Shown: piece after piece, positions 5,186 through 27,645 of the stretch
How the letters are laid out: each line of letters opens with the position of its first letter
Numbering within the stretch: position 1 is the first letter of the stretch
From: a virus
Reading direction: 5' to 3' (one strand)
DNA length: 45,182 nt
Virus record (IMG/VR): IMGVR_UViG_3300004448_000031
Span: 1 to 45,182 of that record
Position numbers and translations under genes: made by a program
The notes under the pieces: model-generated
The model's input: only the letters and a program-made list of their open reading frames with translations
Told to the model about the DNA's origin: nothing
Databases searched by the model: none

Positions 5186-5334
5186 TGGCAACACGTTCTA
5201 AATCATTCAACGGTCAAAACTGTATCGAGTCACAACCAAAAAAGACTCGTCAAGGAAATGGTGCTCATACTAAGTATGCATCATCGAGTAGAAACAATGC
5301 TCGCAAACGTTATAGAGGTCAAGGCAAAGGTTAA
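5185..5334 (+). CDS. Tiny basic protein
   Basis: This 49-residue protein has an ATG that shares a base with the stop of the PAAR gene, so it is probably translated by re-initiation. It is strongly basic, with clusters KKTRQGNG (residues about 19-26) and NARKRYRGQGKG at the C-terminus. There are no hydrophobic stretches, and the composition is that of a disordered nucleic-acid-binding or chaperone-like peptide. I recall similar short K/R/G-rich proteins at the same place in other T4-like cyanophages but know no function. It ends 11 bases before the late promoter of gene 25, so it closes the spike operon. Confidence 0.7.
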   Translation: MATRSKSFNGQNCIESQPKKTRQGNGAHTKYASSSRNNARKRYRGQGKG

Positions 5335-5345
5335 TTTAACGCCTA

Positions 5346-5353
5346 AATAAATA
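5346..5353 (+). promoter_or_regulatory. Late promoter NATAAATA (AATAAATA)
   Basis: AATAAATA matches the T4-type late promoter octamer as used in cyanophages (NATAAATA). It lies between the tiny basic gene and gene 25, 17 bases before the ATG. It would be read by host polymerase carrying the phage late sigma factor (gp55 family). Confidence 0.65.
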
Positions 5354-5366
5354 TACGGCGGTATAT
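5351..5366 (+). promoter_or_regulatory. Hairpin in the leader of gene 25
   Basis: ATATAC (5351-5356) and GTATAT (5361-5366) pair perfectly around a GGCG tetraloop, ending four bases before the ATG of gene 25. No Shine-Dalgarno sequence is present otherwise. The hairpin overlaps the last bases of the late promoter, so it might act as a DNA cruciform, an RNA 5' clamp, or not at all. Confidence 0.5.
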
Positions 5367-5370
5367 TAGA

Positions 5371-5790
5371 ATGACCCTCAAGAAAATCACGTCAAAAGAA
5401 GTAAAATACTCAAAGTCTTTTAAAGATTTTGGTATTTCTTTTGCTAGAAATAAATTTACTGATGACGTGAGTGTTCTTACTAATGAAAATGCGATTAAGC
5501 AATCAGTCAAAAATTTAATTATGACTGTTCCTGGTGAAAAACCTTTTCAACCCTTGATTGGATCTAGGGTTTCTGAATTATTATTTGAACCCCTAGATGC
5601 ATTTACTATAGATGCAATTAGAGAAGAAATTGAGATTACTATAAAACAATTTGAAAAAAGAGTTCGTCTCAATAAAATTGATATTGTTCCAATTTATGAG
5701 AACAACAAAATTTCTGTTACTATAGTTTATAAGATAATTGGTATACCGATCAACGAATCGATTTCATTTGTTTTACAGAGACCCGAATAA
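5371..5790 (+). CDS. 25: Baseplate wedge subunit gp25
   Basis: This is a 139-residue protein (T4 gp25 is 132). It has the gp25/GPW family pattern: a central core with KPFQPLIGSRVSELLFEPLD (compare the family's 'RPF.P.fG..l...LFE'), then a helix with REEIEITIKQFEKRV and beta strands with KIDIVPIYE. In T4, gp25 binds gp6 and gp53 in the inner baseplate and nucleates sheath assembly. The protein is cytoplasmic until assembled and has no signal. The gene follows a late promoter directly, and its stop overlaps the start of gene 6 by one base (TAATG), which fits stoichiometric production of the two partners. Confidence 0.93.
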   Translation: MTLKKITSKEVKYSKSFKDFGISFARNKFTDDVSVLTNENAIKQSVKNLIMTVPGEKPFQPLIGSRVSELLFEPLDAFTIDAIREEIEITIKQFEKRVRLNKIDIVPIYENNKISVTIVYKIIGIPINESISFVLQRPE

Positions 5791-7830: not shown

Positions 7831-10800
7831 ATGAGTATTAATAAGGTCTCTCAAGCAATTCCTAATCAACTCCCTGGGTTTATTGGGTCTGAATATGAAT
7901 TGTTCTCGAAATTTATTGAGTATTACTACAAATCCCAGGAGAAAACGGGATTAGGACAAAACATTCTTAACAACTTTTTAAATTACTTAGATATCGACAA
8001 ATTAGATGTTGATATCTTAGATGGAAAAACGAAGGTTTCTCAAGTTATTGGTACAACAGATGATGTAATTTCTGTTGAAAACGTCGAAGTTTTCTTAGAA
8101 GAGAATGGAAGCATTCTGATTGGTGATGAAGTTATTTTTTATGAAAAAAGTCAATCCTCACCAAATATTTCATTAGGTCCTGGCATTTCTTACGACCAGG
8201 TTAAATTAAAATGGGTAGAACTACAAAGTCCACTTAGATTATTTGATGGCACTACTAGAAGTTTTGAATTAACTTCTCAAGATAGACCAATTGTTCCTCC
8301 AAGTGCAAAACATCTCATTGTTCGGATTTATAATGAATATCTCATTCCCGACGTAGATTTCACTGTAGACAATGGGAATATTGTATTTACTACCGCACCA
8401 AGAGCAGTTGTTCCTGCAGATAGCGAAGAATTATCTAGTATCAATTTTCTCAGCGGTTTTGTAGAAAATAGTATTGCTACTCTAGACAACATTTCGCCAT
8501 CTTTTGGTGATGGTGTCAAAGAATTTAGAATTACTAATAATTCATTACCATATATTCCTGAGTCCGATGAATATATTCTTGCATATTATGATAATGAGTT
8601 ACTTGTACCCAAAAAAGATTTTGTTTTTGATAAAGATTTATTCATCTTTAGAAACTTTGCTCCTCTTAGCGGCAGAAGTTTAACTTTACTTTCTATTGAA
8701 GCACCGATTCCCTCTTTTGGTTCTGGAGCATCTGCGTATGCAAGAATTGATGATAATGGGGCTCTTACCGCTGTTAAAATTAATAATACGGGTTCTGAAT
8801 ATAGATTTGCAAATCCTCCTAAAATCACAGTCAACTCTACTGGAGATGTTGGGTTAGGTGGTGCAGCAGAAGCATTAATTAATGGAATTAAAAATTTACA
8901 ACTTCTTAGCGGTGGCAGGGGATATAGTGAAACAAATCCACCTATTGTAAACATTGAATCGCCAACTCTGGCAGATTCTGTTGATGCTTCAATCAAAGCA
9001 ACAGTAGTTGATGGAAGTATTTCCCAATTAGACCTGGAAAGTTCTGGTAGCGGATATACATTCATTCCAAGAATTACATTCAAGCAACCAGGTGGAGCAG
9101 AAGTAGGTCCTGTAACTATTGTTGATGGGAGTATTTCTGGTGCAATTCCTATTATCTCTGAAGGTGAAGGATATGGTACACCACCACTAATTTATATTGA
9201 TGCACCAACTGGAAGTAATCCAATTAATCCATCGTTTACTACGGTAATTACTGATGGAAAATTAACTGGTGTTGTCATCAATAATCGTGGACAAGGATAC
9301 ACCACTACACCTAGAATTAAACTGATTCAACCAACAGGTGCTCAAATATTAGAGAGTGTAATTGATATTGACGGAAGACTTACATCCATTGAACTACTTG
9401 ACGGTGGCAATGGTTATGAAGATGTACCTTCTGTGTATATTATTGATAGTGGAACTGGTACAGGTGCTACTGCAGTAGCGTCTATCTTTAATGGTAGAAT
9501 TACTGATATCAACATCACTAACTTTGGTTCTGGATATGATAGTTCAAATCCCCCTGTAGTTCTTATTCAAAGTCCACCTGAAGGACAAGCATCTTGTGAG
9601 ATTGGTGTAAATGAGATTACAGGGTTTGCTGTCCTCCAATCGGGTAGAAACTATAACAAAGCACAGTTCATTGGGTGTGCAAGGGCATCTAGTGGCATTA
9701 CATCGTATGATGAAGAAGGTAATGCAGTATTTTCTGCAAATACTGCTGCTGCCACTGCTGAAGTAGGTGCAGAAGTAAAATGTCTAGATGCACTGTTTAT
9801 AAAAAGATTACTTGACAAGTATGTCGAACAATATCTTCCTGACGTACCAGAACTTGACTATAAGTCAATTGATGTTAGAACATCAATTAAGACTATTAAA
9901 AGATTCTATGAAACAAAAGGTACTGAATTTAGTATTGCATACTTATTTAAGTTATTGTACGGAGAAACAGTTGATGTTTCTTATCCTAAAGACCAAATTA
10001 TCAAACCATCAGCAGCAACTTGGTCTATTAACACCATTTTGCGTGCAACCTTAGTTAGTGGTGATCCTAGAAATATTCAAGATGCGCTAATTTCACAATC
10101 TGCAGATATTGCTGACGTGAATGTACAAGATGCGAGTGCTCTTGTAGAAAATTACATCGCAATCAATACTTCAAATACTACAATCTATGAATTAGTTCTT
10201 TCTGAAGAAACTATTGCAGGTTCCTTCATTGTTCCTTACAAAACAAAACTTGCAGAACCTTTAGATGGAGAAACCAGTATTATTACTGTTGACTCTACTA
10301 TTGGTTGGCCAGAAAGAAATGGTGAATTTGTAATTGGCACCACAGAAGTAGTTCGTTATAAAGAAAAATCTTTAAACCAGTTTATTGAGTGTACTAGAAA
10401 CTTTGCTGGTTCGATTGGAGCAGATCCTAAAGTCTGGGATTCTGCAACAGAAGTTACTTCCAATTTCAGAGTGTATCTGAACAAAGGAACGCTTCAAGAA
10501 GTTGTAATGAACATTGTTGGTATTGTTGATGCCCAACGAACAAATCTTACTGACAGTGGTTCTTACTATCTTCCAGGTGATAAATTGACTGTTGCCAAAC
10601 TTGGCGGCACTAGTCAGGAATCTTTATTGACAACCTGGTTGTATAATGTCAAAAAACTGATTAGTATTTCAGGAATCACTTTTGGTGGAGATAATAATCA
10701 ATCGGCAACTGTAACTTGTAATAATCCTCATGGAGTATTAGTCGGAGATCAAGTTACCATTTATGGTGCAAATCCAATCATTTATAATGGAACATTTGAA

Positions 10801-13800
10801 GTAACTTCTAGAGATAGCGATCTTGTCTTCCAGTATCTCCTTCCACAACCAGCGTTGGTTGCTCCTCAAGGAAATATTTTGGTGTCTGTTGACTTGAATA
10901 AAGGCAAGTCTACAGATACTGCAATTAATAAAAATATTTCTGTATACACTACAAACGTACTGAATTCATTCTTTAATGATAATTATGTTTATGTTGCTTC
11001 AACGGGTATTCCCAATTATAATATTGGACCTTTTCCTGGGTCTGCTTTGTTACCAGGGAATCAACGTAAACTGAATAGATTTCCAAAATCTACAACTACA
11101 ATTTCAACTAAGAGTTTAATTGCTCCAGGTCCTATTGGTACTTGGGTTAATGGTGTATCTGTTTGGTCTTATAAGTCTGTATTATCAAAAACTTTTGGAC
11201 CCTTAACATCCATTGGGATTGTAAATGCAGGTAAAAATTATGACGCAGCATCTCCACCAAGTTTAACTATTTCTGATGGTGGAGGAAGTGGTGCAGCGGC
11301 AACTGTTGTTGTAAATGGATCTATCAGCGATATTTCTGTAGATACTCCTGGTTCTGGATATACAAGTTCTCCTCTCATCTCCATTGTTGGTGGTGGAGGA
11401 AGTGGTGCAGCGGCAACTGCTATCATTACAAAAGGACAAGTTTCTAACATTTTAATCACTAATGGTGGTTCTGGATATACTTCACAACCATTTATTACTA
11501 TTGTTGGTGGTGAAGGTACTGGCGCAACTGGAACAGCATCTGTTCGTGGTCCTATCAAAGAAGTCAATATTTCATCTCAAGGTAGTTCATACACTTCTCA
11601 ACCTACAGTATCATTGAGTTCTGGTTCTGGTGCTGTTGCTCAAGCCATTATCAATAATGGAAGGATTATTTCTGTAGCAATTATTTCTGCTGGTTCTGGA
11701 TATACTACAGCACCAGAAGTTCAAATCCAAGGTGTTGGTTTTGGTGCTGAGGCTAGAGCAATTATTGATACTGCTGGGGAAAATGCTGGTAGAGTTACTA
11801 GTATTGAACTTTTAAACAGGGGCATTAACTATGTTCAAGGAACTACGGTCATTACTCTAGTTTCTGTTGGTAGTGAAGCACAATTTGATGCAAACGTATT
11901 CCAATGGACATATAACCTACAAGAATCTGCTACTTTTGATAGTTCTCAAGGGGCAGTGTTTGAAGGATATAATAACCAGTATGGTGGAGAGTATGCACAT
12001 TTATCAAATCCACAAAGACTCAGATTCATTCTTGGGGATAATCTAGTTAGTACTAATGGTGTTATCACTGAAGCATCATTAGAATCTAATAATGATCACT
12101 CTCCTATTATTGGTTGGGCATTTGATGGAACTCCAATATACGGACCCTACGGGTATGAAGATCCTACAGATCAATCATCCAATGTTATTAGAATCTCTAC
12201 TTCTTACAGATTAAAGTCTGATTTAGTTCTTAGTTCTTCAAATCCATCTCCTGTTAGAACTGAAGGTTCCCTTTTAAGTGTCGATCCTGCAGGAACTTTT
12301 GTTGAAGATTATGAATACGTCTTTGGTTTGGGAGCTTTAGACCAATATAACGGTCGTTTCTGCAAAACACCCGAATTTCCAGACGGCACATATTGCTATT
12401 TTGTTACTATTGATTCTACTGAAGCAGGTAATGCTACATATCCCTATATTATTGGTCCTAGTTTCAATTCTATTGTAGATAATTTAAATCTTTCCGAATC
12501 TGCTATTCAGCAGAATATTCCAACAGGGGTTGTACGTTATCGCGATCCTTATGAAAATGTTGATATTGATGTTGAAAGAACTCCCAATGCGTCTACAAAT
12601 TCATTAACATTGGAAGATGGCACATTACTTCTATTTGATGTTGAAGATGAAAATAGAGATGGGATCATCTCTCAAGATGAGACTGATGACCCCGATCAAA
12701 TTTTAGAAGAACCTCCTCTTCAAATTTATGATTATTTCCCTAAGGTAAAAACTGATTCTAAAGTTGATATCGAAGTTGAAACAATTAGTAAATTTGAAAA
12801 TGCATCTGTAACGGGATTTGTAATTGAAAATGCTGGTGTAAGTTATCAAGTTGACGATAAACTAATTTTTGATAATTCTGAAACAGGTGGTAGTGGTGCA
12901 TCTGCTAGAGTTTCTAAGATTAAAGGTGAATCTATCACATCTTATGATTTTGAATATAAAAATTCAGAAAACTATGGTGTTATTCAAACATCGGTTCCCC
13001 ATAATCTTATTATTGGAGATAGTATTTTTGTTGATTATACTGAAAATATAGAGACCACAAATAAGCAATTTGTAGTCAGACAACTTAAAGGCATTGAGAC
13101 GATTAATATCACTCAATCTGGTAGTGGTTATAATGAAGATATTCCCCCAACTATTATTATTGATGGTGATGGGGTAAGTGGAGAGTTGGAAGCAGTTGTT
13201 GATTCAGTTGGTTCTGTTAGCAAGGTTACCATTGTAAATTCTGGCAATGGATATACAACCAACCCAAGAGTTATACTTTCTCATCCTCAAGTATTCAAAA
13301 AATCTGATTATTATATCACTTCGATATCGAATGAAGATGATGTAATTATTAATGACACTTTTATTTCTGAAAGTAAAGAATCCTACATTTGTGGTAAAAC
13401 TACGGATAGTAGTGGAGATACAATTGCTATTATCTCAAAACTTTCTGTATCTGGTGTTAGTGAGTGGAATAAAACTTTAAAACTTTCTTCGGGTCTTGCC
13501 TACACAGAATTTCAAAGTATTTACGTCGAGAATAAAACTATTTGGGTCGTAGGTATTAATAAACCAAATGCTGCTATTTTAGATGCATATAATCCCGATA
13601 TTATAATTTGTAAGTATACAGAATCTAATGATGGATTGTCTGCAACTTTAGAGTGGCAAAGAGCATATGCTGGTATTTCTGGAGGAACTCGTTCTGATAA
13701 TGTAACTAAGATTCTTAGATATGGAACTGATAGTTTAATTATCTCTGGATATACAAATACAAACTCTACAAATCCATACGATGGTTTCATTGCAGTAATT

Positions 13801-19800: not shown

Positions 19801-22800
19801 GATAATGAAGATCTTTCTGTAAGAAAACTTTCATTAACTAATGAATTCGGAAATGGATTCTTTAGCGTTGGACAAACTATTCGTACTAGAGACACTAAAG
19901 CAGAAGTTATTGGATTTAATCAAGCACAAAGTTTGGTTTACCTTGGTAAAGTTGGTAATAGTTTAACGTCTGGAACAGATGCTCATACAGTCAACTTTAA
20001 TGCTGGTGCTCAAATCAATACTTACAATAAAAAGTATGGTTCTGGTTCTCTTGCTCTGTCTAAAGGAACTGATGTTCATGCATTTGTAAGTGGAACTGCA
20101 GATTCTATTTCTGATGGGTCTCTTACATATACTGCAGCTACAGGAACAACATATGACCCATTTACTGGAGTCTTATTGTTAGAGATTGGTTCGCACGCAC
20201 TTACCACGTCGGATACAGTAACTATTACCGATAATACACTTACATTCACTTGTGGGTCTGATAATAATACTAATAATTACACATATCCTCGTTCTAGTGA
20301 TCCTGCCTCTGGTAGTGCTCGTGCTATTAGTGCAGTTACCGCTACCACAATTACAGTTAATGTAGGCGCAATTCCTATTGATGAATATCTAGATATTGCA
20401 ACATCATCTAATTTTGGTTTTGGTACAGGTGAGTTCACTGTTGAATGTTACATCAAAACAACTACCATTGCTGCAGGAACAAAAGTTATTTGCGACTTTA
20501 GGTCTGCGGTTGGTGATGCTGCAGCACAGTTGGTTCTTAATGGCAATACTATTCAGTACAATAGAACTAATGGTGGAATCACTATCAATGGCACTACAAC
20601 GCTCCTAGTAGACACTTGGTATCATGTTGCAGTCTCTAGAACTGCAGGTGTTGTTAGACTGTATTTGGATGGTGTACAGCAAGGTACAGACACCGCTGAT
20701 GTCACCAATTATGGAACAACTAGACCTTTGTATATTGGTTCTGATTACACTGGTAGTAATAATTTTGCTGGATACATTGACGAATTCAGAGTTTCCAATA
20801 TTGGTCGCTATGCTACTGCCTTTACTCCACGTAATGGCATGTTCCAAGGTGATACAAATACAAAACTATTACTTCACTTTGACGAATCTCAGGGAGCAAC
20901 ATCTGTCCAAGACTGGTCTGGTACTGAAGACTTTACTAAGGGTGAATTCTTTAACAATGATGCAATTAAAGCAACCACAGATGCTAACGGTAGTGCAGTA
21001 GTTGCTGGATTTACTGGAAATTCTCACAGATACTTGGATGCTGCAACTTTATTAGAGAAGAATAAAAACTTCATTGCTAAAGAAACAGTTTACCTCCTAA
21101 CCCAACAGTATCCTTCTCTAACAATTCCAGGTGGTAATGTAAATTGTGAAGATGACATTGAGGATATCGTTCAATCTATTGTTGAAGATCTTCGTAACGG
21201 TTCAAATAATCATATTTGGGATGCTGCAGCACTTTATGTTGACAGGACAGACCTTAATGCTATAACACTCAACCACGTTGAGACTGAAATTGACGAAACT
21301 GTATGGGCATACAATAAAGTTGGAGATATTATTCCATATATTGTCAATAATGTTCTTTGGAGTGTATCTGGTTCTCATGGAGTATCACAATTTACTGATA
21401 CTACTCTCACAGATTCTGATAATACTGTATACTCGCAATTCACTCCTACAGGAGCAACATACGATTCTGCAACGGGCGAAATGGTTCTGACCATTGGTAG
21501 TCATACTTTAACCACTTCGGACCAGATTTCTATTGCTGCAGGAGGTCTTACTTTTACATGCAGTTCTGATAATAATGAAACTCAACATTCATATCCTAGA
21601 ATTGATGACCCCTTCTACAATAAAGTTCTTGCTATTACTGCAGTAGCTGCTACTACAATTACAGTTAATGTTGGTATTTCTCCTGAGGGTCAAAGATATA
21701 CTCATGTATTTGTTTCTGCTTCTTCCAATTCTATTAGTAAGTTAAATTATACTACAGGAGATTGTGCTGATGTTAAGACTACGGCAGATAATTTGCTTGA
21801 TATCGTAATTGATACCTTAACTAACGCTAATCTTGCTACCCCAGTCGATCACCTAGGAACAATCACTAGAGTTGCTCCTACTGTTGAATTTATTGGTGCT
21901 ACAGTAGATGAATACTTAGAAGTTCCCTTTGATGGCGATTATGTCCTCAATGATAGCGACACTCTCTATACTAATAAAATTGATGAATCTACACAATATA
22001 GATTCCGTGATGCTGCAAATCTTATTCGTTACAATAGGACAGCAATTGTTGATAAAGCAGCAGCAGATATGATTTCTAGATATCCAGACCTTTCTCTGGA
22101 TATGCCAAGAAACACTGATGGTAGTGGTTCTGGAACTGAAAGATGTAAGCAAGACCTTGGATTAATTCTTGATGGTATTGCTGGCGATATTGAAAATGGT
22201 GGTAATAAAAAGACACTTACTGCTGGCAAGTTCTACCTAGGTAATAATAATGAAATTCAGCATGTTAGATTGCAGTTATTCCAATCAGTTTATGCTCATG
22301 AGCGTCTAGGTTTCTATTCCAAACAAGCAATTACTGGTGACTTAACTTCTGCAAATACTACCGCATTAATTATTGGTGATTGGGGTATTACAAATGATGC
22401 AGGTGATTGTGCAAATGTTCAATCTGCAATTGATACTTTAGTTACTCAGATAAATGATCTTATTGCTCCTACTGGTGCTGATTTTGCAACTGCAGCAGAT
22501 AGATTATACTTCAACAAAGAATATATTGCTTCTGAAGCAACAGGACTCACCGATGCCGAGTTTACTTATATCTTAAATGGTATTACATATAGAGCATTCG
22601 ATTATCCTGGTGTTGGAACTGCAGGTAAAACAAAATGTGAGAGAGATCTCAAACTCATTCTCCTCAGTGCTATTTCCGACCTTCAAACTGGTGGTACTAA
22701 TAGTACAATTGAAGCAATTGAATTGTACTTGACTGCAAATCTTTCTATTGACCATATCGAAGAGCAGTTAACATCTACAATTTTTGCAATTGAGAGATTG

Positions 22801-25800
22801 AGAGCACTTGGCATTTCCGCTATAGAAAATGTTCTTTATAATGCTGGAACCGTAGTATCTGCTGGGCAGTATGCTGCAGTACATACATCCGAATCTGCAT
22901 ATCGTGATGCAATATCTGTCACTGACATTGAACCAGTTAAAGCAAAGTTTGGTGAGTTAATTGATATTGCAGTCAAAATTCTTTCTCCTGCAGGTATCAA
23001 AGGTAGATATGCTGCTCAACAGATTCTATTCAATAAAAATTACTACAAGACAGAACTTGCGTTAACAATTAACAGTGAGTTTGGAGTAGGCACTTGGGTT
23101 TATGATGATTATGTTGATGGAATTATCGACAATCTCTCTCATGATTTTGTAATTACCGATGTTACTTCTGCTAATACTCAGCAATCAAGAAGAATTTCTG
23201 TTACCAAACAGGGTGTTATCAGTGAACTGCAGTTTACTTCAGGTGCTGGTTATAGAACCACTCCTACAGTTACAGTCCCTGCACCTGTATCTGGTGGAGT
23301 TACAGCAACAGCAACAGCGGTATTAGAGGAATCTGGTTTAATTGATACTATCACTATTAATACTGGTGGTTCTGGATTTGATATGCCTCCAGTTGTTACC
23401 ATGACTGGATCTAATGTTCCTAATGATGGTATTACTGCAACTATTTCGGGAGGTGTTGTTGATTCTCTTACCTATGATGGTCGAGTATTCGATGCTGATG
23501 ATTTTATTGGATTTGGTAGTGGTACTGAAGTTACCGATAGTGGTTCTGCTATTGGTAGTGTTGGCGGATTTAAGACTGGAGTCAGACATATTAAGTTTGG
23601 TGCTGCAAGTGGTACTCGTGAAGCAACAGTATCTGATACTAATACCGAAAACTTAGACACTATCAGAGTATATGTCATTGCTGGTACTGGTTCTAATGGT
23701 GCTTCTGCACCTGGTGATAATGAAGACTTGAAGTTCCAATATTCTACTAACCAGGGTGGTACTTGGACTGATGCTGCAACCTTGATTTACGGCGGTTCTA
23801 ATGGTGGTGCAGCAAACTACACTAATTTCTCCACACTAACTCCAGTTACTGTAGCAGTTCCTGTTGCTGCAAAAACTGAGGCAACACGATTTAGAATCAT
23901 TCAACCAACTTATACTGATGGATTCTTATATGATCACTATGCTGTTACTAGACTTGGTTTAGCAAGCAATAGTAAGAAATTTGAAGGTACAGTAACTCTT
24001 AGTTTCGCTAATTCCCCTTCTGATTCTGGAACAACTGTCGATCCCACAGCAACATTTAGCACTTTAAGAGCACTTGAAAATATCATTATTACCGAACGTG
24101 GTAGAGGATATGTTCCTGCAACTCCTCCAACTGTTACGATTAGTGGCGGTAATCCTGATACTGCAGCAACGATCACAAACGTTAACGTTGTTCTTGATAC
24201 TGCAAGATTTGCTAAAGGAGAAACTGTTACTTCTAGTGGTGGTGGAACCGCAACTGTCTTAGAGGATGTTGAATCAGTAATCTTTATTGGAAGTATTACA
24301 GGCACACTATTTGCTGATGCAGATACTTTAACTGGAGGCACTAGTGGAACGGTTGCTGACATCAACGCTAGTGGAGTTGGTGCTGAGTTTGATTATTATA
24401 CTAATGTTGGTAATATTCAGACATTTGCTGATGCTAGATTGATTACTTCTCCAATTGAAGGAGAATTCTCAACTACAAACCTGTTTACTAATCCTGAAGC
24501 ATTCCAAGTTAACTGGGGTCAGACTAGAACAACATATGCTGCTAATACTGCGGTATCACCAGATGGCACACTTACTGCAGATAAACTAAGAGCAACTGCT
24601 GATAATGATACTCATATAACCTTTAGAGATTATGCGCTATCTTCTTCCAATACATTCGATGATGGAAGTCTCACATTTGATAATGCATCCAACTCTTTTG
24701 ACGAAGGTTCCTTTAGTGAAGGCGAATCACAAACTTATACAATATCTACCTTCATTAAGAAGGGTGAATATGAAAATGTCAGATATGACGTAACATTAGA
24801 TATCGGAACTGCTGGTCAGCAGAGATTATTCTTTGATATCGATCTTAACAATGGTGATATTGGTTCTATCTTCCAACCTGAGGGTGGAATCATTGTTAAA
24901 AACAGAGAACTATTAACTGTTAAAGAAATTACAGTTAATACCAGAACTGCTATGACAGGAACTTATACAGGAGTTACTGGTTCATCAATTGGTGGATTGG
25001 GTGGTGTATTTGATATTGTTATTGACCATGAGAACGCACCGAATACTGCAGTAATTACCATTACTGATGGCGGTTCCGAATGGATTCTGGATTCTGAAAT
25101 ACTGATTGATGGTGTTAGTATTGGTGGCGTATCAGGTCAAGATAATTTGACATTCCAGGTTGCTACTACAGAACCTACAGGTGTGTCGGTTATTCCTTAT
25201 GGTAATGGGTGGTTTAGAGTTTATGCAACTATTGAATTCTCATTCGGATTTAGTAGTATCAGAAATCAAATTATCATGCGAGGTCCTACTAATAACCCCA
25301 CATTTGCAGGAAATGGTAATGACGGCATTTATCTTTGGGGTGCTAAACTCAATAAGGGATCATTTGATGCGTATACATCTGTTGGTGGCGAGGTATTCTA
25401 TTCTAATTCAGAATATAACGCTAAGAGATATACTTTAGAAGTCCTAGAATCATATCTAGAATCTGCACTTGACGGAACCTTAACTTCTCCAGCACCACAA
25501 TCAACATTCTTGGCATTTGATAATGCTACTTGGAGAGCGGGATATGAAACCGACCCATTCTTAAGAATTGCTAGAGAAAATATAGACTTCTTCAGACAGC
25601 AATTAGATAATGCAACATATTATGTTAGTATCACTCAAAACAGTGGTATTGTAGTTCCATCTAAGGAATATGGCATTACATACGTTCCTCCTGGAATTTC
25701 TGGTGGTCTTGGTAGAGCAGACTTCTTCTATGGTTTGTATAGTGATACCAATGCTGAAATTAAGAGAGTCAATGTAAATGAGGCGAAAATCGCTAAAGTT

Positions 25801-27645
25801 TATAAGAGATTCCGTATTGATGGGGATATTACTGATGGTCCATTCACGATGGGTGAAGCAGTTCAGAAACAGGGTGATGCCACTATAACTGGTACAGTAT
25901 ATCAATTCCATGAAGATGAAAATTATAAGTATCTGGATGTTGAAGTTACAGCAGGAACCTGGCAAATCTCTGATATTATTGAAGGTCAGGCAAATACTAC
26001 TACGGCAACGTTGAGTTCAATTGAAGATAGACTACATGTTATTAAACTTGTAGGTGATTTTACTGATAATATTCCTTTCCTTGGTTATACTTCTGGTCAA
26101 ACAGCACAACCTACAGCATTCTTGAAAACTGAAGCAGCAGTTCTTGATAATTCTGGTGGTAGATTGACTGTAGATACTGAGACATTATTGGGTGTCTTTG
26201 ATAAAACCGCTGTTGTATATGGCGGCACAACTGACTTATACCTTGAAGTTCAGTCATATCAAGGACTCGACGTTACAATTGGAGATAGAATTATCTCGGG
26301 TGGTTATGTTCGCTTGGGTGTAAATAGTGCCGCTGATTTCACTGTAGGCAATTATGTTTACAAGTATGTTGGTGGTAAGGATGCTAGTAAGCGAGCTATT
26401 ATTACAGGAGTTGATACTGTCAGTAACTATGTTTATATTGCGCCTATTGATGGGGATTTCGCAATCACCGAACAAATCGCAGACTTTGGTACTGGTGGAG
26501 GAGGTGTAAATTATGAAGCACTTGCAACAATATCTACAAAAATCACTGTTGCGGGTGGAGCATCAGCTAGAATTAATAACATCACTGCTGTTGGTATTAA
26601 TAAGCGTCTCTTCTTAAATGAAATTGTTGGAACTTGGACTGCAAATGATTACGTTATTGCCGCTGACAATTATAAGTCGGTAATTCTAGATCTTGTCAAT
26701 TCAAATGCTCGCGTCAAGAGAGCATCTAAAGGATTTGATGGTATAGAAACTACCTTCAATCTTACTATCAATAACGGAACATCATATTTACCTGACCCTG
26801 CTGGTCATATGTTAATCTTTATCAATGGTATTTTACAACCTCCTGGTGCAGGTAATGCATATAATGCATTCTCCGATAAGATTCAGTTCGCTGAACCTCC
26901 TGATATCGGATCTACCTTTACGGGATTCTATGTTGGTAAATTGAGACAACTGGATAATATTGGATTTGAGTTTGATTCTTTACGCCAATCATTTAACCTC
27001 AAGAGAGATGAGGTGTTCTATTCATTGACACTTACAGATGGTGTTAGATCTAGTACCATCAGACCAGAAAATAATATCATTGTCTCCTTGAATGGTGTTA
27101 TTCAAGAACCTGGAGTTGGTTTTAGTATTGTTGGTTCGAGGATTATCTTCTCTGAAATTCCTCGCGTGGGTTCCACATTCGTAGCATTCTCATATGTTGG
27201 TTCTGAAGCTGACGTTGATGCCTCGGAAGTTGTTCCTCCTATCGAACCAGGCGATTTCCTTTCTATTGAAGGTGAAACTGAGGACCGCGAGGTTGCAGTT
27301 ATTGAGTCGTCTAACTCGTTGATTACATTCGATTATCTTGGGTCTGTATTCGGACAAAATGCCGAAGCTACAGCAGTTCTTACTAGTGGATTTATTGAAA
27401 CCGTTAGCATTACTGCACCAGGTTCTGGTTATACTTCACGACCTGTCGTGAGAGTTGACTCTATTAGTGGATTCAACGCACAGATTAAGGCAATCGTAGG
27501 TATTTCTACAGTGGAAGTTAATTCTGGTGGTAGTAGTTACAAGAATCCTGATGTGTTAGTTGAAAGTGAAGTTCCTGATGACTGGACAGCACCAAATCTC
27601 GCTGATTACGGTGAAGAGATTATCGATCCTGAAGTCCTTCCATAA
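7831..27645 (+). CDS. 7: Giant gp7-like baseplate wedge protein with nested domains
   Basis: This single 6,604-residue frame (about 0.7 MDa) occupies 44% of the window. It lies where T4 has gene 7, and two gp7 motifs are present with T4 spacing inside each: FYETKGTEFSIAYLFKLLYG (692-711) and WKDILIRNVHPASF (3481-3494). Domains in order: two 'FDG...P' beta modules (133-290), eight Gly-x-x-Tyr repeats (321-608), gp7 motif 1, a split YHYH domain (1050-1116 and 1388-1545), an EF-hand loop (1606-1617), a beta-propeller-like region (1826-2207), LamG 1 (2224-2430), a degenerate cupredoxin-like segment (about 2864-2950), gp7 motif 2, LamG 2 (4050-4370), helical repeats (4399-5105), a carbohydrate-binding-like domain (5547-5851) and two 'NGxxQxP' beta modules near the end. 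It has no signal or membrane segment. It likely forms baseplate wedges and carries their decorations. The ATG at 7831 follows gene 6 by four bases with no ribosome site. Confidence 0.85.
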   Translation: MSINKVSQAIPNQLPGFIGSEYELFSKFIEYYYKSQEKTGLGQNILNNFLNYLDIDKLDVDILDGKTKVSQVIGTTDDVISVENVEVFLEENGSILIGDEVIFYEKSQSSPNISLGPGISYDQVKLKWVELQSPLRLFDGTTRSFELTSQDRPIVPPSAKHLIVRIYNEYLIPDVDFTVDNGNIVFTTAPRAVVPADSEELSSINFLSGFVENSIATLDNISPSFGDGVKEFRITNNSLPYIPESDEYILAYYDNELLVPKKDFVFDKDLFIFRNFAPLSGRSLTLLSIEAPIPSFGSGASAYARIDDNGALTAVKINNTGSEYRFANPPKITVNSTGDVGLGGAAEALINGIKNLQLLSGGRGYSETNPPIVNIESPTLADSVDASIKATVVDGSISQLDLESSGSGYTFIPRITFKQPGGAEVGPVTIVDGSISGAIPIISEGEGYGTPPLIYIDAPTGSNPINPSFTTVITDGKLTGVVINNRGQGYTTTPRIKLIQPTGAQILESVIDIDGRLTSIELLDGGNGYEDVPSVYIIDSGTGTGATAVASIFNGRITDINITNFGSGYDSSNPPVVLIQSPPEGQASCEIGVNEITGFAVLQSGRNYNKAQFIGCARASSGITSYDEEGNAVFSANTAAATAEVGAEVKCLDALFIKRLLDKYVEQYLPDVPELDYKSIDVRTSIKTIKRFYETKGTEFSIAYLFKLLYGETVDVSYPKDQIIKPSAATWSINTILRATLVSGDPRNIQDALISQSADIADVNVQDASALVENYIAINTSNTTIYELVLSEETIAGSFIVPYKTKLAEPLDGETSIITVDSTIGWPERNGEFVIGTTEVVRYKEKSLNQFIECTRNFAGSIGADPKVWDSATEVTSNFRVYLNKGTLQEVVMNIVGIVDAQRTNLTDSGSYYLPGDKLTVAKLGGTSQESLLTTWLYNVKKLISISGITFGGDNNQSATVTCNNPHGVLVGDQVTIYGANPIIYNGTFEVTSRDSDLVFQYLLPQPALVAPQGNILVSVDLNKGKSTDTAINKNISVYTTNVLNSFFNDNYVYVASTGIPNYNIGPFPGSALLPGNQRKLNRFPKSTTTISTKSLIAPGPIGTWVNGVSVWSYKSVLSKTFGPLTSIGIVNAGKNYDAASPPSLTISDGGGSGAAATVVVNGSISDISVDTPGSGYTSSPLISIVGGGGSGAAATAIITKGQVSNILITNGGSGYTSQPFITIVGGEGTGATGTASVRGPIKEVNISSQGSSYTSQPTVSLSSGSGAVAQAIINNGRIISVAIISAGSGYTTAPEVQIQGVGFGAEARAIIDTAGENAGRVTSIELLNRGINYVQGTTVITLVSVGSEAQFDANVFQWTYNLQESATFDSSQGAVFEGYNNQYGGEYAHLSNPQRLRFILGDNLVSTNGVITEASLESNNDHSPIIGWAFDGTPIYGPYGYEDPTDQSSNVIRISTSYRLKSDLVLSSSNPSPVRTEGSLLSVDPAGTFVEDYEYVFGLGALDQYNGRFCKTPEFPDGTYCYFVTIDSTEAGNATYPYIIGPSFNSIVDNLNLSESAIQQNIPTGVVRYRDPYENVDIDVERTPNASTNSLTLEDGTLLLFDVEDENRDGIISQDETDDPDQILEEPPLQIYDYFPKVKTDSKVDIEVETISKFENASVTGFVIENAGVSYQVDDKLIFDNSETGGSGASARVSKIKGESITSYDFEYKNSENYGVIQTSVPHNLIIGDSIFVDYTENIETTNKQFVVRQLKGIETINITQSGSGYNEDIPPTIIIDGDGVSGELEAVVDSVGSVSKVTIVNSGNGYTTNPRVILSHPQVFKKSDYYITSISNEDDVIINDTFISESKESYICGKTTDSSGDTIAIISKLSVSGVSEWNKTLKLSSGLAYTEFQSIYVENKTIWVVGINKPNAAILDAYNPDIIICKYTESNDGLSATLEWQRAYAGISGGTRSDNVTKILRYGTDSLIISGYTNTNSTNPYDGFIAVIDSAGTFSVKRKLTSNTQNEKVLDIILGSDGQPYFLMETSTGVAEADKDLVFGKALVGISSIDISWIRKVSNNVYSLLNPSIAIDEFDELYVSATLQLKSNDINRESFWVGKFKSSDGVSIWSYSYAVPGRDINLVPRAKIDIFGHLNLVYTRVDNTTEKQTVANVKIDYKGKILTHTVNSFTENNVEGIVAETLNVDNSGDVYIGGQTYWNRNEGIFEFDTDLSDTTGHHTMTTLGLNGSIAVDGTGGYLKIYGFQTGQSSTWENSAAKIPGSSLGNNLGGDFTIDFLIYKDDDNSNADTLNADYNTLLAIGDGEDTTGGVWLYYNTDGSANEGRLELVVTDNTNKFSGGVAAVSSQTGLFANDTWQLISLTKTENLFKAYVNGIEVISGTVANTQLGSKDIHFGNAPGFTTSGAFNSDNQGQFFLDDIRIRNRYVLPTAPTDFGNPLALPVADAVPLAYTWTDTTWFTEQQDRYDLIAYNGFVLKTDKNSDATRLGVTAAGANTQLGWTRTAVTPVTENAITMVNVGYSLGDPGLQSLDYSEVATTMTENTTTVTYSRDIWSSRTATIPSPGSQKLKVEASVADRYYFKTFNTVKIDNIQELTINQGFNFTVGSKLELRTGSTFVNSGYITSVDSTNNKVYLAVNNNSWTNDTNIGNLATVQFNEQSTYGLVGIIPSDINDILYTFPQVVNTTPGTFDIDLSTYDAPSIIGGTNNLDEFAHFKDYADDDYSIRIDEVSGSSAFVVGSVVNVSSGDVSYNSAYSTIQITNLTGVTKITLIANLSKILQVTAVSNSDSVYVISDSLHYLTVGQQMFIDGNPTRTVNSLTYDEYDGSFPVERVISPIEFTYKLPTVAVSSPADSAALVNFFIKSPVLKMYYGHQYLFDLSHSSLVGGNLSFSKDPLYKLEYSFNSIERVGTPGVTGGGAPTPTVKLKVEQDVITNISYYFDPSRTGADSPVIGDSYLDVTFSPYVGTFVVTDTSGGTITSGDNVFEFKLLNQPEGAATILNSTYTTSSKKAVGSIGDIRIVNSGGFYNKLPIINTIQSTRNIERVSINAPGTEYAVNTYSGVPISGDGEGGLVEIVVADGTDDEGGAIPGQIQRVTVTSPGKGYTTATIDIESISGILGAGLTGSGAELEVVIPSFGTGASIFTLGTEIGKIKNLKNNNFGFDYPHDYTLRPEISFPINAQLTNTSILDNIAVTDPGSGYTQAPTVVITGGGGSGAIAEATIKNGRLSTIEVKDPGSGYSSEPTVQLKSSFNYTVNQDLGLLQFAFPHGIQNGAEITLAVVDIGDGAELPIASGAVGRLTTTNTYYAIAGAANSLEDDQLKIAITSANAELGDALSFVNPGTGRQQVLTFSFGGAAVGNVITSTFLEGELVYQGDALETATATGYVSTNSGWQVGPRILKIVDYTGTFNLNNSVTGVISKSSGNISDLKIARGVLEVGPITKTTGQFIDDVGKPSEIVQKIQDSYYYQDFSYAVKSSVSISEWKDILIRNVHPASFKVFGELSINEFTTIPNKVTDFELTKSVELANEAIVPNIQNFTLVEPIYEDFNNSEILFRQKRLTSSENILTSVVQRIDDVSNLFDGVRTAFPLTVNNGQSVIANANQLMVILNGVVQTPDTSFQIQSDSIVFAEAPQPPASVKYVNVEISQIATISIEFTSISGIFPLVGNSINGVSSGSRLTVTSVVGNTIFGFFTEGTQFLASELVLGNVTGFSALFASSTAVVNNGLFIFGESIKNLTGDIATVEDVNLEKGAETPVAKLRYTVGISTTDLEVIATDSDLNNPAAVPSDAFVVGDNYQIGSEIVEVNSITTNSESTTINVTRAQLGTTSLQHQENSPFYGTNITITNDLILSKTTGTYQSTPGLFDIQLNDVIIASQSGVVARITSTAPYTDPTTLEVVEQVEISEGSTFFGLLFDRIASITYPNVVIDDVSRSQVSIVEFGDNVTDFNSKFPENENVNHYVIPYDTASGALTEGEYIRNYKLEFGNESGNFTDNEDLSVRKLSLTNEFGNGFFSVGQTIRTRDTKAEVIGFNQAQSLVYLGKVGNSLTSGTDAHTVNFNAGAQINTYNKKYGSGSLALSKGTDVHAFVSGTADSISDGSLTYTAATGTTYDPFTGVLLLEIGSHALTTSDTVTITDNTLTFTCGSDNNTNNYTYPRSSDPASGSARAISAVTATTITVNVGAIPIDEYLDIATSSNFGFGTGEFTVECYIKTTTIAAGTKVICDFRSAVGDAAAQLVLNGNTIQYNRTNGGITINGTTTLLVDTWYHVAVSRTAGVVRLYLDGVQQGTDTADVTNYGTTRPLYIGSDYTGSNNFAGYIDEFRVSNIGRYATAFTPRNGMFQGDTNTKLLLHFDESQGATSVQDWSGTEDFTKGEFFNNDAIKATTDANGSAVVAGFTGNSHRYLDAATLLEKNKNFIAKETVYLLTQQYPSLTIPGGNVNCEDDIEDIVQSIVEDLRNGSNNHIWDAAALYVDRTDLNAITLNHVETEIDETVWAYNKVGDIIPYIVNNVLWSVSGSHGVSQFTDTTLTDSDNTVYSQFTPTGATYDSATGEMVLTIGSHTLTTSDQISIAAGGLTFTCSSDNNETQHSYPRIDDPFYNKVLAITAVAATTITVNVGISPEGQRYTHVFVSASSNSISKLNYTTGDCADVKTTADNLLDIVIDTLTNANLATPVDHLGTITRVAPTVEFIGATVDEYLEVPFDGDYVLNDSDTLYTNKIDESTQYRFRDAANLIRYNRTAIVDKAAADMISRYPDLSLDMPRNTDGSGSGTERCKQDLGLILDGIAGDIENGGNKKTLTAGKFYLGNNNEIQHVRLQLFQSVYAHERLGFYSKQAITGDLTSANTTALIIGDWGITNDAGDCANVQSAIDTLVTQINDLIAPTGADFATAADRLYFNKEYIASEATGLTDAEFTYILNGITYRAFDYPGVGTAGKTKCERDLKLILLSAISDLQTGGTNSTIEAIELYLTANLSIDHIEEQLTSTIFAIERLRALGISAIENVLYNAGTVVSAGQYAAVHTSESAYRDAISVTDIEPVKAKFGELIDIAVKILSPAGIKGRYAAQQILFNKNYYKTELALTINSEFGVGTWVYDDYVDGIIDNLSHDFVITDVTSANTQQSRRISVTKQGVISELQFTSGAGYRTTPTVTVPAPVSGGVTATATAVLEESGLIDTITINTGGSGFDMPPVVTMTGSNVPNDGITATISGGVVDSLTYDGRVFDADDFIGFGSGTEVTDSGSAIGSVGGFKTGVRHIKFGAASGTREATVSDTNTENLDTIRVYVIAGTGSNGASAPGDNEDLKFQYSTNQGGTWTDAATLIYGGSNGGAANYTNFSTLTPVTVAVPVAAKTEATRFRIIQPTYTDGFLYDHYAVTRLGLASNSKKFEGTVTLSFANSPSDSGTTVDPTATFSTLRALENIIITERGRGYVPATPPTVTISGGNPDTAATITNVNVVLDTARFAKGETVTSSGGGTATVLEDVESVIFIGSITGTLFADADTLTGGTSGTVADINASGVGAEFDYYTNVGNIQTFADARLITSPIEGEFSTTNLFTNPEAFQVNWGQTRTTYAANTAVSPDGTLTADKLRATADNDTHITFRDYALSSSNTFDDGSLTFDNASNSFDEGSFSEGESQTYTISTFIKKGEYENVRYDVTLDIGTAGQQRLFFDIDLNNGDIGSIFQPEGGIIVKNRELLTVKEITVNTRTAMTGTYTGVTGSSIGGLGGVFDIVIDHENAPNTAVITITDGGSEWILDSEILIDGVSIGGVSGQDNLTFQVATTEPTGVSVIPYGNGWFRVYATIEFSFGFSSIRNQIIMRGPTNNPTFAGNGNDGIYLWGAKLNKGSFDAYTSVGGEVFYSNSEYNAKRYTLEVLESYLESALDGTLTSPAPQSTFLAFDNATWRAGYETDPFLRIARENIDFFRQQLDNATYYVSITQNSGIVVPSKEYGITYVPPGISGGLGRADFFYGLYSDTNAEIKRVNVNEAKIAKVYKRFRIDGDITDGPFTMGEAVQKQGDATITGTVYQFHEDENYKYLDVEVTAGTWQISDIIEGQANTTTATLSSIEDRLHVIKLVGDFTDNIPFLGYTSGQTAQPTAFLKTEAAVLDNSGGRLTVDTETLLGVFDKTAVVYGGTTDLYLEVQSYQGLDVTIGDRIISGGYVRLGVNSAADFTVGNYVYKYVGGKDASKRAIITGVDTVSNYVYIAPIDGDFAITEQIADFGTGGGGVNYEALATISTKITVAGGASARINNITAVGINKRLFLNEIVGTWTANDYVIAADNYKSVILDLVNSNARVKRASKGFDGIETTFNLTINNGTSYLPDPAGHMLIFINGILQPPGAGNAYNAFSDKIQFAEPPDIGSTFTGFYVGKLRQLDNIGFEFDSLRQSFNLKRDEVFYSLTLTDGVRSSTIRPENNIIVSLNGVIQEPGVGFSIVGSRIIFSEIPRVGSTFVAFSYVGSEADVDASEVVPPIEPGDFLSIEGETEDREVAVIESSNSLITFDYLGSVFGQNAEATAVLTSGFIETVSITAPGSGYTSRPVVRVDSISGFNAQIKAIVGISTVEVNSGGSSYKNPDVLVESEVPDDWTAPNLADYGEEIIDPEVLP
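8791..9654 (+). repeat. Eight Gly-x-x-Tyr beta repeats, array 1 (giant protein)
   Basis: Residues 321-608 of the giant hold GSEY, GRGY, GSGY, GEGY, GQGY, GNGY, GSGY and GRNY at intervals of about 35-45 residues. Each is followed by a Pro and a beta strand of the form P-x-[IV]-x-[IVL]. This looks like a beta-solenoid or a chain of small beta hairpins. Confidence 0.75.
9904..9978 (+). other. gp7 signature motif 1
   Basis: Residues 692-716 match a stretch of T4 gp7 as I recall it (FYSTKG.E.S..FLFK.LY, then an acidic strand): F-Y-x-T-K-G-x-E-x-S, then LFK-x-LY. It is followed by PKDQIIKPSAATW, also typical of cyanophage homologues. Confidence 0.7.
10978..11178 (+). other. YHYH domain, N-terminal half (giant protein)
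   Basis: Residues 1050-1116 contain VYVASTGIPNYNIGPFPG and an IGTWVNGVSVW strand with Asn-Gly at 1107-1108, as in the first half of YHYH domains. The second half begins only about 270 residues later. Confidence 0.6.
11206..11850 (+). repeat. Gly-x-x-Tyr repeats, array 2, inserted in the YHYH domain
   Basis: Residues 1126-1340 carry repeats of the type GSGYTSxPxxxIxGGGGSGAxA about every 38 residues. A 28-base segment is repeated exactly at 11278-11305 and 11392-11419 (offset 114 bases, 38 codons), so this array expanded recently by tandem duplication or was homogenised. Confidence 0.8.
11992..12465 (+). other. YHYH domain, C-terminal half (giant protein)
   Basis: Residues 1388-1545 contain IIGWAFDGTPIYGPYGY, then LDQYNGRFCKTPEFPDGTYC and YPYIIGP, the hallmark strands of the YHYH family. 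The name-giving Tyr-His-Tyr-His tetrad is reduced to YAHL at 1388-1391. Confidence 0.75.
12646..12681 (+). other. EF-hand-type calcium-binding loop (giant protein)
   Basis: Residues 1606-1617 read DENRDGIISQDE, a full match to the 12-position EF-hand loop (acidic/Asn at 1, 3 and 5, Gly at 6, Ile at 8, Glu at 12). It lies between the YHYH domain and the next beta region, as a lone loop. Confidence 0.6.
13306..14451 (+). other. Beta-propeller-like region (giant protein)
   Basis: Residues about 1826-2207 show recurring blade-like endings ESYICGKT, SLIISGYT, ELYVSATL and DVYIGGQT, each followed by a short loop and strands ending in aromatic residues, about 60-120 residues apart. SBBP- or PQQ-type propellers have this pattern. 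The number of blades cannot be fixed by eye. Confidence 0.45.
14500..15120 (+). other. LamG-like (concanavalin A-like) domain 1 (giant protein)
   Basis: Residues about 2224-2430 follow the LamG/laminin-G pattern: GGDFTIDFLIYK, TWQLISLTKTENLFKAYVNG, then FFLDDIRIRN. Such jelly-roll domains bind glycans or proteins. Confidence 0.65.
16420..16680 (+). other. Degenerate cupredoxin-like segment (giant protein)
   Basis: Residues about 2864-2950 (YYGHQYLFDLSHSSLVGGNL ... ISYYFDPSRTG) resemble the cupredoxin-like pattern seen in the two downstream proteins (G.TY.F..SDSSN.GHPL ... LYYYC..H..M), but the His and Cys-His-Met ligand positions are not preserved. Confidence 0.35.
18271..18312 (+). other. 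gp7 signature motif 2
   Basis: Residues 3481-3494 read W-K-x3-I-R-x-V-H-P-x2-F, with the same spacing as T4 gp7 as I recall it (WKSDVIRFVHPVGF). A 'SYYYQDFSYAVKSS' type strand precedes it, as in gp7. It marks the second half of the gp7 core. Confidence 0.7.
19978..20940 (+). other. LamG-like domain 2, split by an inserted module (giant protein)
   Basis: Residues about 4050-4370. The first strands (KYGSGSLALSKG) and the rest (EYLDIATSSNFGFGTGEFTV, WYHVAVSRTAGVVRLYLDG, YIDEFRVSNIGRY) form a classic LamG domain, but about 95 foreign residues (20092-20376) separate them. Confidence 0.75.
20092..20376 (+). repeat. Inserted 'SDNN-YPR' beta module, copy 1
   Basis: Residues about 4088-4182 contain TYDPFTGVLLLEIGSHALTT, then LTFTCGSDNN, YPR and ATTITVNVG. 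The same module recurs at about 21430-21690 with most of these positions identical. Confidence 0.75.
21025..23145 (+). repeat. Alpha-helical repeats, three full and one partial (giant protein)
   Basis: Units begin near 21025, 21985, 22480 and 22996 with patterns such as DAATLLEKNKNFIAKE, DAANLIRYNRTAIVDK, TAADRLYFNKEYIASE and YAAQQILFNKNYYKTE. Each full unit continues with C-x-x-D-[IL], a DL..G.N turn, a His-containing helix and a 'GDCA.V...D.L' helix. These are the only long helices in the giant. Copy 1 is interrupted by the beta module below. Confidence 0.7.
21430..21690 (+). repeat. Inserted 'SDNN-YPR' beta module, copy 2
   Basis: TYDSATGEMVLTIGSHTLTT, LTFTCSSDNN, YPR and ATTITVNVG repeat copy 1 (20092-20376). 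Here the module sits inside the first helical repeat, between its AAxLL-type helices and its GDCADVK helix. Confidence 0.75.
24469..25384 (+). other. Carbohydrate-binding-like beta-sandwich, split (giant protein)
   Basis: Residues about 5547-5851 match a sandwich common in marine phage spikes: NLFTNPEAF, SPDGTLTADKLRAT, YTISTFIKKGEY, then GNGWFRVYATI and GIYLWGAKLNKGSFDAY. About 85 residues (24910-25170) of another Gly-rich beta module are inserted before the GNGWFRV strand. Confidence 0.55.

Follow-up and report, generated by a model that had tools for sequence, protein, structure and literature searches.

The 45,182-base record IMGVR_UViG_3300004448_000031 of IMG/VR, analysed here in its entirety and called the window, is a fragment of a T4-like cyanophage genome; the closest named phage found was Synechococcus phage ACG-2014g (KJ019071, Kyanoviridae, circular, 174,885 bp). 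On its plus strand, a single open frame without an internal stop extends from 7831 to 27645, directly behind the gene for the baseplate wedge protein gp6, and encodes a giant protein of 6,604 amino acids (707.2 kDa). Matches to the core of the T4 wedge protein gp7 were located in three pieces of this chain, with two inserts between them and a long extension behind them. The main features, with scores from the segment hidden Markov models (HMMs) and the profile A1 described below, are:

7831..27645, + strand: probable giant gp7-type baseplate wedge protein, 6,604 amino acids
7840..7995, + strand: gp7 core segment a, residues 4-55, 33 bits; A1 positions 5-58 at 7840-8001, E 3.4e-10
7996..9864, + strand: insert 1, residues 56-678, 623 residues, beta-rich
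9865..10203, + strand: gp7 core segment b (FYETKG...LFKLLYG), residues 679-791, 60 bits; A1 positions 69-198 at 9826-10248, E 2.0e-21
10204..18198, + strand: insert 2, residues 792-3456, 2,665 residues
18199..18354, + strand: gp7 core segment c (WKDILIRNVHPASF), residues 3457-3508, 55 bits; A1 positions 285-395 at 18025-18369, E 1.6e-21
18355..27642, + strand: C-terminal extension, residues 3509-6604, 3,096 residues

The ends of insert 2 vary with the model: phmmer extends segment b to residue 823, and profile A1 begins segment c at 18025.

Segment HMMs made from ten compact gp7 cores scored the window protein at 33.3 (a), 59.6 (b), and 54.6 (c) bits. The best scores in 300 shuffles of the giant protein were 1.9, 4.6, and 1.7 bits, respectively, so the core match lies above chance. 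Profile A1 was likewise built from ten compact cores, including three Straboviridae rows and two classed as Kyanoviridae by their records; T4 was among the rows, and no giant was. Ochrobactrum phage OC, whose 631-residue protein is annotated as T4-like gp7, was used as a compact bridge. In phmmer comparisons, with E-values referring to a set of 25 proteins, OC matched the window in three collinear pieces (OC residues 6-94 on 5-89, E 8.6e-5; 80-214 on 679-823, E 1.2e-11; 232-282 on 3457-3507, E 6.7e-10). Its first 300 residues gave one-piece matches to Acj9 gp7 (637-888, E 4e-10) and Klebsiella KLB21 gp7 (647-891, E 2.8e-8) and a match to T4 gp7 at 730-761 (E 9.5e-6). The same 300 residues found tblastn matches in 1,078 of 50,697 phage records at E 0.001, and many of the best 60 matches listed bore the annotation of a T4-like gene 7 or of a baseplate wedge subunit or initiator. 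The wedge model PF23786 was split in the same manner, with positions 173-221 at 9853-9999 and 235-281 at 18202-18330. An earlier note, made by a model from the letters of this DNA, had reported FYETKG at residue 692, LFKLLYG at 705, and WKDILIRNVHPASF at 3481, and all three motifs were found there. Its figure of about 150 residues between the corresponding T4 motifs was also close: in T4 gp7 (1,032 amino acids), FYSTKG is at 734, the HP motif is at 884, and the WKSDVIRFVHP stretch lies 141 residues past FYSTKG. The note had described a core split in two; the core is indeed present and interrupted, but in three pieces, residues 4-55 having been overlooked.

Joining the cyanophage segments (nine phages) and aligning them with Straboviridae gp7 in hhalign yielded 150 columns over T4 residues 730-899, with a probability of 96.7 and an E-value of 3.2e-10, as the note had expected of joined segments. 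This alignment spans segments b and c, and segment a is tied in only through intermediates. When the segments were reordered, the orders abc and bca retained the joint match, whereas cab and cba split it into two. A1 matched the solved T4 gp7 (5hx2/5iv5) at E 6.3e-82, T4 itself being a row of A1. The core begins at residue 4 in the window and at residue 639 in T4.

Several observations weigh against this assignment. PF23786 scored below its curated cut-off on the window, and the Pfam models for the T4 Gp7 helical domain, domain V, and domain VI matched T4 gp7 and not the window protein (E 0.01). Segment a alone had no direct match to T4 gp7 (hhalign probability 0.1), and its identity rests on the compact intermediates. 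The AlphaFold model of residues 1-850 (36 sequences) left segments a and b under a predicted local distance difference test (pLDDT) value of 50 and so did not confirm that they pack together, and Foldseek found no match to this model at E 0.001 or better. In the same model, residues 71-620, comprising most of insert 1, were beta-rich (block means, 59-93). A phmmer search of residues 1-850 against PDB sequences returned chance matches only (best E 0.33). The low confidence of segments a and b would be expected for segments that need partners, and the prediction as a whole fits loosely with a model in which the inserts form loops. We place at about 0.87 the probability that this giant is the wedge protein of gp7 type in a T4-like cyanophage, with a core of about 220 residues that is present once and in order but interrupted, in three pieces. 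Along its length, the giant protein also matched phrog_701 (6,136 positions) in four pieces. The PHROG families 701 and 4406, both of which match it, are filed as head and packaging, virion structural protein; on present evidence the giant protein belongs to the tail baseplate, contradicting that filing.

The split was compared across the gp7 family. Of 25 proteins listed, including that of the window, S-CAM9 was excluded (its gene start was not fetched, and segments a and b were unscored), leaving 24, with Sinorhizobium phage phiN3 in the comparison set; gaps were counted from end to end of the segment HMM matches. Between segments a and b, the gap was 13-15 residues in T4, two T4 relatives, and ten compact or middling proteins, 115-138 in pelagimyophage HTVC008M and six cyanophages, and 623-637 in the window, ACG-2014g, P-SSM4, and P-TIM40. 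Between segments b and c, the values were 36 (OC), 41 (T4), 45 and 45 (Acj9 and KLB21), 57 (SRB7757), 127, 130, and 171 (pf16) at the low end, 191, 271, 271, 469 (HTVC008M), 489, 743, 1,542 (S-PM2), and 1,628 (S-CREM2) in the middle, and 2,110, 2,169, 2,202, 2,307 (P-HM2), 2,665 (the window and ACG-2014g), 2,745, and 2,751 at the high end. The length after segment c ranged from 5 to more than 3,500 residues, the values for P-SSM4, P-TIM40, and DLP6 being lower bounds because these were fetched without gene ends; 638 residues precede segment a in T4. From these gaps and flanks it follows that the core takes cargo at four places, and the choice differs between phages: S-CREM2, for example, carries its cargo chiefly at the large internal site and has 6 residues after segment c. 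That large site sits within the final stretch of T4 domain V (PF21427, 766-861). The graded gaps over the 24 proteins show that the split is large but shared across the family, with inserts that grade in size, and the window does not mark its limit.

The giant homologs comprised 7,019 (ACG-2014g), 7,312 (P-SSM4), and 7,351 (P-TIM40) amino acids. The ACG-2014g gene is 92.4% identical to that of the window and has the same core spacing (623 and 2,665). In a tree of segments b and c (24 rows), the giants grouped with 2 changes against a shuffle mean of 7.9, and a single change was obtained in 12% of the bootstrap trees; a single origin of the giants is neither shown nor excluded. T4 and its two relatives stood on a long branch amid the giants, with weak support.

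Within insert 2 and the C-terminal extension, the following domains were recognized, in addition to three modules given further below:

11893..12420, + strand: YHYH domain, residues about 1355-1530; PF14240 in two adjoining pieces, E 9.7e-17 and 1.7e-7
14596..15102, + strand: LamG-like domain within insert 2, residues about 2256-2424; PF13385 E 2.4e-5, 25.0 bits, cut-off of 27.6 not reached
20404..20799, + strand: LamG domain in the C-terminal extension, residues 4192-4323; PF13385 E 4.9e-21
23593..23946, + strand: Reelin subrepeat B match, residues about 5255-5372; PF21471 E 5.9e-14

The earlier note had placed a YHYH domain, an EF loop, a propeller-like region, and a LamG domain between its two motifs, with another 3,100 residues or so behind them. 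The YHYH domain and the 3,096 residues after segment c agree with this description. For LamG, PF13385 gave support at residues 2256-2424 just under the Pfam cut-off, while the clear LamG domain sits after the motifs; an EF-hand-like loop occurs at residue 1606, although Pfam reached only E 0.15 there. The propeller was not recovered, since Pfam gave none in residues 1851-2260. At E 1, Pfam had no match in residues 851-1350, 2491-3300, and 3761-4240. The model PF21471 takes its name from an animal matrix protein, and it matches here within a phage tail protein. The note's mass of about 4 MDa for six copies is arithmetically sound (computed, 4.24 MDa), with the copy number borrowed from T4.

The giant gene is embedded in a baseplate cluster. 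The gene order in the window is a phrog_719 wedge protein, a PAAR protein, gp25, gp6, the giant frame, gp9, a gp10-like protein, a gp8-like protein, and a phrog_358 protein. The members with their own coordinates are:

5371..5790, + strand: gp25 baseplate wedge protein; phrog_261, E 1.3e-60
5790..7826, + strand: gp6 baseplate wedge protein, directly upstream of the giant frame and the expected gp7 partner; phrog_219, E 2e-227
33576..35108, + strand: gp8-like baseplate wedge protein; phrog_438, E 1.6e-231
35108..43108, + strand: VrlC-type protein; phrog_358, E 0

With gp6 ending at 7826 and the giant frame starting at 7831, the two genes are adjacent in the wedge cluster; the gp8-like gene is the third after the giant frame, not the next one. 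T4 gp8 also matched phrog_438 (E 3.1e-23). The gene after gp8 carries a VrlC annotation in the records of P-HM2, S-SM2, and HTVC008M, and by this gene position, not by direct comparison, the phrog_358 protein of the window is the VrlC counterpart. Matches to phrog_460 were common to the giant protein and its gp10-like (28908-33542), gp8-like, and VrlC-type neighbors; those to phrog_701 were common to the giant, gp10-like, and gp8-like proteins, and those to phrog_22827 to the giant and gp10-like proteins. This sharing suggests repeat exchange inside the baseplate operon.

A second gp7 core was sought with A1 at E 0.1 in the window and eleven whole named records. A single gp7 was found in T4. 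In the other ten records, all carriers of the split gene, matches to segments a, b, and c were confined to the gene after gp6, and no second core was present. A1 matches in other genes stayed inside profile positions 135-335 (domain-V and repeat-like columns). The earlier note's expectation that no separate gp7 gene exists thus holds in ten whole relatives, the window record being a 45-kb fragment. The VrlC gene of S-SM2 (GU071095, 77848-78210) had a weak match to A1 positions 135-225, part of domain V (E 0.0013).

According to PMC10665884, virions contain the S-CREM2 homolog (gene at 77594-83407, 1,937 amino acids, directly after gp6), detected by 91 unique peptides that cover 27.2% of it, and virion proteomics of S-SM1 is reported in PMC3037559. 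(TssF)2-TssG and (gp6)2-gp7 are described in PMC6300606 as a three-helix bundle with a trifurcation. Extrapolating from the T4 and type VI secretion system structures, segments a, b, and c would join two gp6 copies in the wedge bundle, the two inserts would exit this bundle as domain-bearing loops with their ends near each other, and the C-terminal extension would hang off the far end. T4 hangs 638 residues ahead of the core; the lineage of the window has almost none there and instead places its cargo at the C-terminus and at two sites inside the core. This cargo (GSGY-type beta repeats, YHYH, LamG, modules with a phycobiliprotein fold, and Reelin-like sequence) would most likely form the outer baseplate, and we are inclined to think that it touches the host surface. 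The idea put forward in the note, that the wedge initiator became a carrier of inserted domains, stands insofar as the interrupted core bears YHYH and LamG domains; the insert as a loop and its host-facing role belong to the model just outlined.

Two papers speak for a loss of gp7 in these phages: PMC7029224 states that cyano- and pelagimyophages lack it and have VrlC in its stead, and Sullivan 2010 (PMC3037559) lists gp7 among the non-cyanophage core genes. If gp7 had been lost in this way, the giant protein would be a separate host-recognition protein sharing short wedge-like motifs. We consider this very improbable, as the motifs belong to a collinear core with E-values down to 1.6e-21 and the giant gene lies directly after gp6, with the VrlC-type gene separate in the same window. 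HTVC008M, a pelagimyophage, likewise holds all three segments (27, 59, and 58 bits). On the strength of that separate gene and of the HTVC008M segments, the present result disagrees with the published absence of gp7 from cyano- and pelagimyophages. An artefact of assembly or annotation that fused several genes might be suspected, the window being one uncultured-virus record of 45 kb, but the circular ACG-2014g genome carries the same gene (92.4% identity) with the same core spacing, and the P-SSM4 and P-TIM40 genes are likewise huge (7,312 and 7,351 amino acids). These independent genomes refute an artefact, to which we give practically no weight.

Two further alternatives concern the fate and role of the chain and leave its gp7 origin in place. 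Phages are known to process structural proteins, and the chain could be made as gp7 and then cut during or after assembly into a virion core and separate arm proteins. No positive sign of such a cut was seen, though no search for a protease gene or site was made; the 27.2% peptide coverage in S-CREM2 is silent on whether the chain is whole (PMC10665884). We regard it as rather unlikely. The inserts may also serve as a second structural layer or stabilize the wedge, with other fibres contacting the host. The PHROG matches held in common with the gp10-like, gp8-like, and VrlC-type proteins indicate that the cargo partly resembles general structural material, and a two-layered baseplate is predicted for such phages in PMC7029224. 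The same source ties YHYH and concanavalin A domains to carbohydrate binding and host recognition, and insert size varies strongly between phages, as would be expected of host-facing parts, though this is unspecific. A purely structural role for the inserts is a possibility that we take seriously without favouring it, and a gp7-type wedge protein with host-facing cargo is the reading retained here.

Three modules of the C-terminal extension resembled phycobiliproteins, which harvest light in the cyanobacterial hosts:

21010..21498, + strand: module 1 (C-E-D-D at the bilin site); A3 E 3.6e-65; PF00502 E 5.7e-4, 20.3 bits, under the cut-off of 22.2
21985..22470, + strand: module 2 (C-K-Q-D); A3 E 7.4e-56; PF00502 E 0.0058, 17.0 bits, under the cut-off
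22471..22977, + strand: module 3 (C-E-R-D); A3 E 7.0e-52; alone, no PF00502 match at E 1

Profile A3 comprised 39 modules, taken from viral contigs and the window and thinned from 112 HMM matches; the window modules are themselves rows of A3, which bears on these E-values, and P-SSM4 was not among the rows. On the 1,600-residue C-terminal piece, PF00502 (Phycobilisome) reached 30.5 bits against its cut-off of 22.2, with no single stretch passing, and 26 of the 39 single modules matched it at E 0.1 (best 4.1e-5). Against PDB sequences, A3 matched 119 distinct entries at E 1 or better, the best being phycocyanin alpha (E 1.8e-6, profile positions 10-115); of the best 60 among these 119, 54 were named phycobiliproteins and the other 6 were fluorescent proteins (3 smURFP, 2 near-infrared, and 8u0f). 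A narrower profile, A2, gave phycobiliproteins in 59 of the best 60 of 67 matches, with a best E-value of only 0.0018. The AlphaFold model of module 2 had a pLDDT of 83.6 and a predicted template modeling score of 0.83. In a Foldseek search of the PDB with this model, the best 50 of 510 matches (E 10) were phycobiliproteins, with 8u0f once; the best E-value was 1.0e-3, and none was counted at 0.001 or better. With a second aligner, the best 50 of 1,000 chains were phycobiliproteins and 8u0f (Z 17.8), the best listed match being phycoerythrin beta 7ap5 (Z 18.1, root-mean-square deviation 2.5 angstrom, 153 residues). Because unrelated helical models can reach a best Z of about 14 with this aligner, the sequence result weighs as much as the fold. 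Identity was 12-20% in the structural rows listed, and in most of them residue 1 of the module 2 model aligned to residue 27-29 of the phycobiliprotein chain, so the module, with the boundaries used here, lacks the N-terminal part before that point. The N-terminal helices of phycobiliproteins serve subunit pairing.

The motif CXRD is bilin-binding according to PMC10151467, and the Cys and Asp aligned to it were invariant in all 39 A3 rows. In a set of divergent modules, Cys with Asp at +3 occurred in 28 of 31, the three without Cys being those of P-SSM4, and Arg at +2 occurred in 8 of 31, including module 3 of the window. The modules are very probably homologous to phycobiliproteins and bilin-binding globins. 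Only one gap between the window and ACG-2014g giant proteins reaches 20 residues, and it also falls in this region: 397 extra residues of ACG-2014g (residues 4434-4830) correspond to a point at window residue 4433, inside module 1, and had a best Pfam match of only E 0.033. In several viral contigs, the match to module 1 begins only at about residue 42 of the query. Together with the 397-residue gap, this indicates that domain insertion inside the module may be commonplace.

A3 matches were found in 7 of the 12 records (window, 3; ACG-2014g, 4; P-HM2, 6; S-PM2, 13; P-SSM4, 3; P-TIM40, 9; S-CAM7, 3), some of those counted being module parts, and no module was found with A3 in S-SM2, P-SSM2, S-CREM2, HTVC008M, or T4. 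All modules of S-PM2 and S-CAM7 and 4 of the 6 in P-HM2 sit in other giant genes. A tblastn search with region 21013-22830 matched 382 phage records, which by first name word were Synechococcus (291), Cyanophage (61), Prochlorococcus (22), and Marine (8). In BFVD, the fold occurred in 21 entries at E 0.001, the named ones being cyanophage or uncultured-phage tail, structural, or uncharacterised proteins. A scan of bacterial and archaeal genome contigs, limited in the distance it could reach, gave 10 pattern matches, none confirmed as a module relative, which leaves room for relatives in hosts.

The retained Cys and Asp at the bilin site favour bilin binding by these modules, as do the bilin reductase genes in 4 of the 12 records and the phycobilin lyase genes reported in cyanophages (PMC10665884). 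A pairing of Cys-bearing modules with a phage bilin reductase was rejected in its simple form, as the two did not co-occur across the 12 records: the reductase PF05996 was present in P-HM2, P-SSM2, P-SSM4, and P-TIM40 only (4 of 12), ACG-2014g and S-PM2 have modules and no reductase match, P-SSM2 has the reductase and no module, and P-SSM4 has the reductase although its modules lack the bilin-site Cys. This lack of co-occurrence speaks against bilin binding, as do the Cys-less P-SSM4 modules, the frequent replacement of Arg, and the part preceding chain residue 27-29, which falls outside the module boundaries used here. More likely, the fold serves a plain structural purpose. We consider it improbable that baseplate modules with C-x-x-D bind host- or phage-made bilin, which would give a pigmented tail or a bilin serving as cofactor or sensor; if they did, phage-encoded bilin enzymes and lyases would have a target within the virion. 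The modules raise the question of why the tail of a cyanobacterial virus carries a phycobiliprotein fold that has, for the most part, retained the Cys and Asp of the pigment site.

As a gp7-type protein, the giant shows that a machine part of fixed geometry can take up thousands of residues, both at its C-terminus and at two sites within it, and the graded series of main-site gaps, 36 to 2,751 residues long, offers a direct way to test how such proteins grow. It also points to the place of gp7 in abundant marine phages for which one paper calls it missing. The gene itself is known: the records of P-SSM4, S-RIM8 A.HR1, S-SM2, P-HM2, and S-RIM50 already call it gp7 or baseplate wedge initiator. 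The literature searched, short of preprints and most subscription journals, held no mention of a split core or of a phycobiliprotein fold in a phage tail protein, which is weak evidence that neither has been described.

Compared with known systems, the modules share with phycobiliproteins and BBAGs the sequence profile, the predicted fold, and the Cys and Asp of CXRD; they differ in the N-terminal part, absent from the modules as delimited here, and in the CXRD Arg, found in just 8 of the 31 divergent modules. The type VI secretion protein TssG is likened to the giant protein by description, not by sequence, (TssF)2-TssG assembling like (gp6)2-gp7 in PMC6300606. T4 gp7 (Straboviridae, PDB 5HX2/5IV5) has segments a, b, and c in the same order, lies beside gp6, and has profile A1 in common with the window. 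Its core is uninterrupted (gaps of 13 and 41) with extra domains ahead of it, in contrast to the gaps of 623 and 2,665, the 3,096-residue tail, and the lack of a T4-specific Pfam domain match (E 0.01) in the window. The compact gp7 proteins of OC (631 amino acids) and Pseudomonas phage pf16 (523 amino acids), consisting of the core plus little else, bridge T4 and the giants, and differ from the window in a main-site gap of merely 36 and 171 residues, respectively. Closest to the window are the giants of ACG-2014g, P-SSM4, and P-TIM40, which have the same split and sites with similar spacing and form a well-supported clade with it on the tree of segments b and c; they differ from it in the additional 397 residues inside module 1 of ACG-2014g and in the three P-SSM4 modules without the bilin-site Cys.

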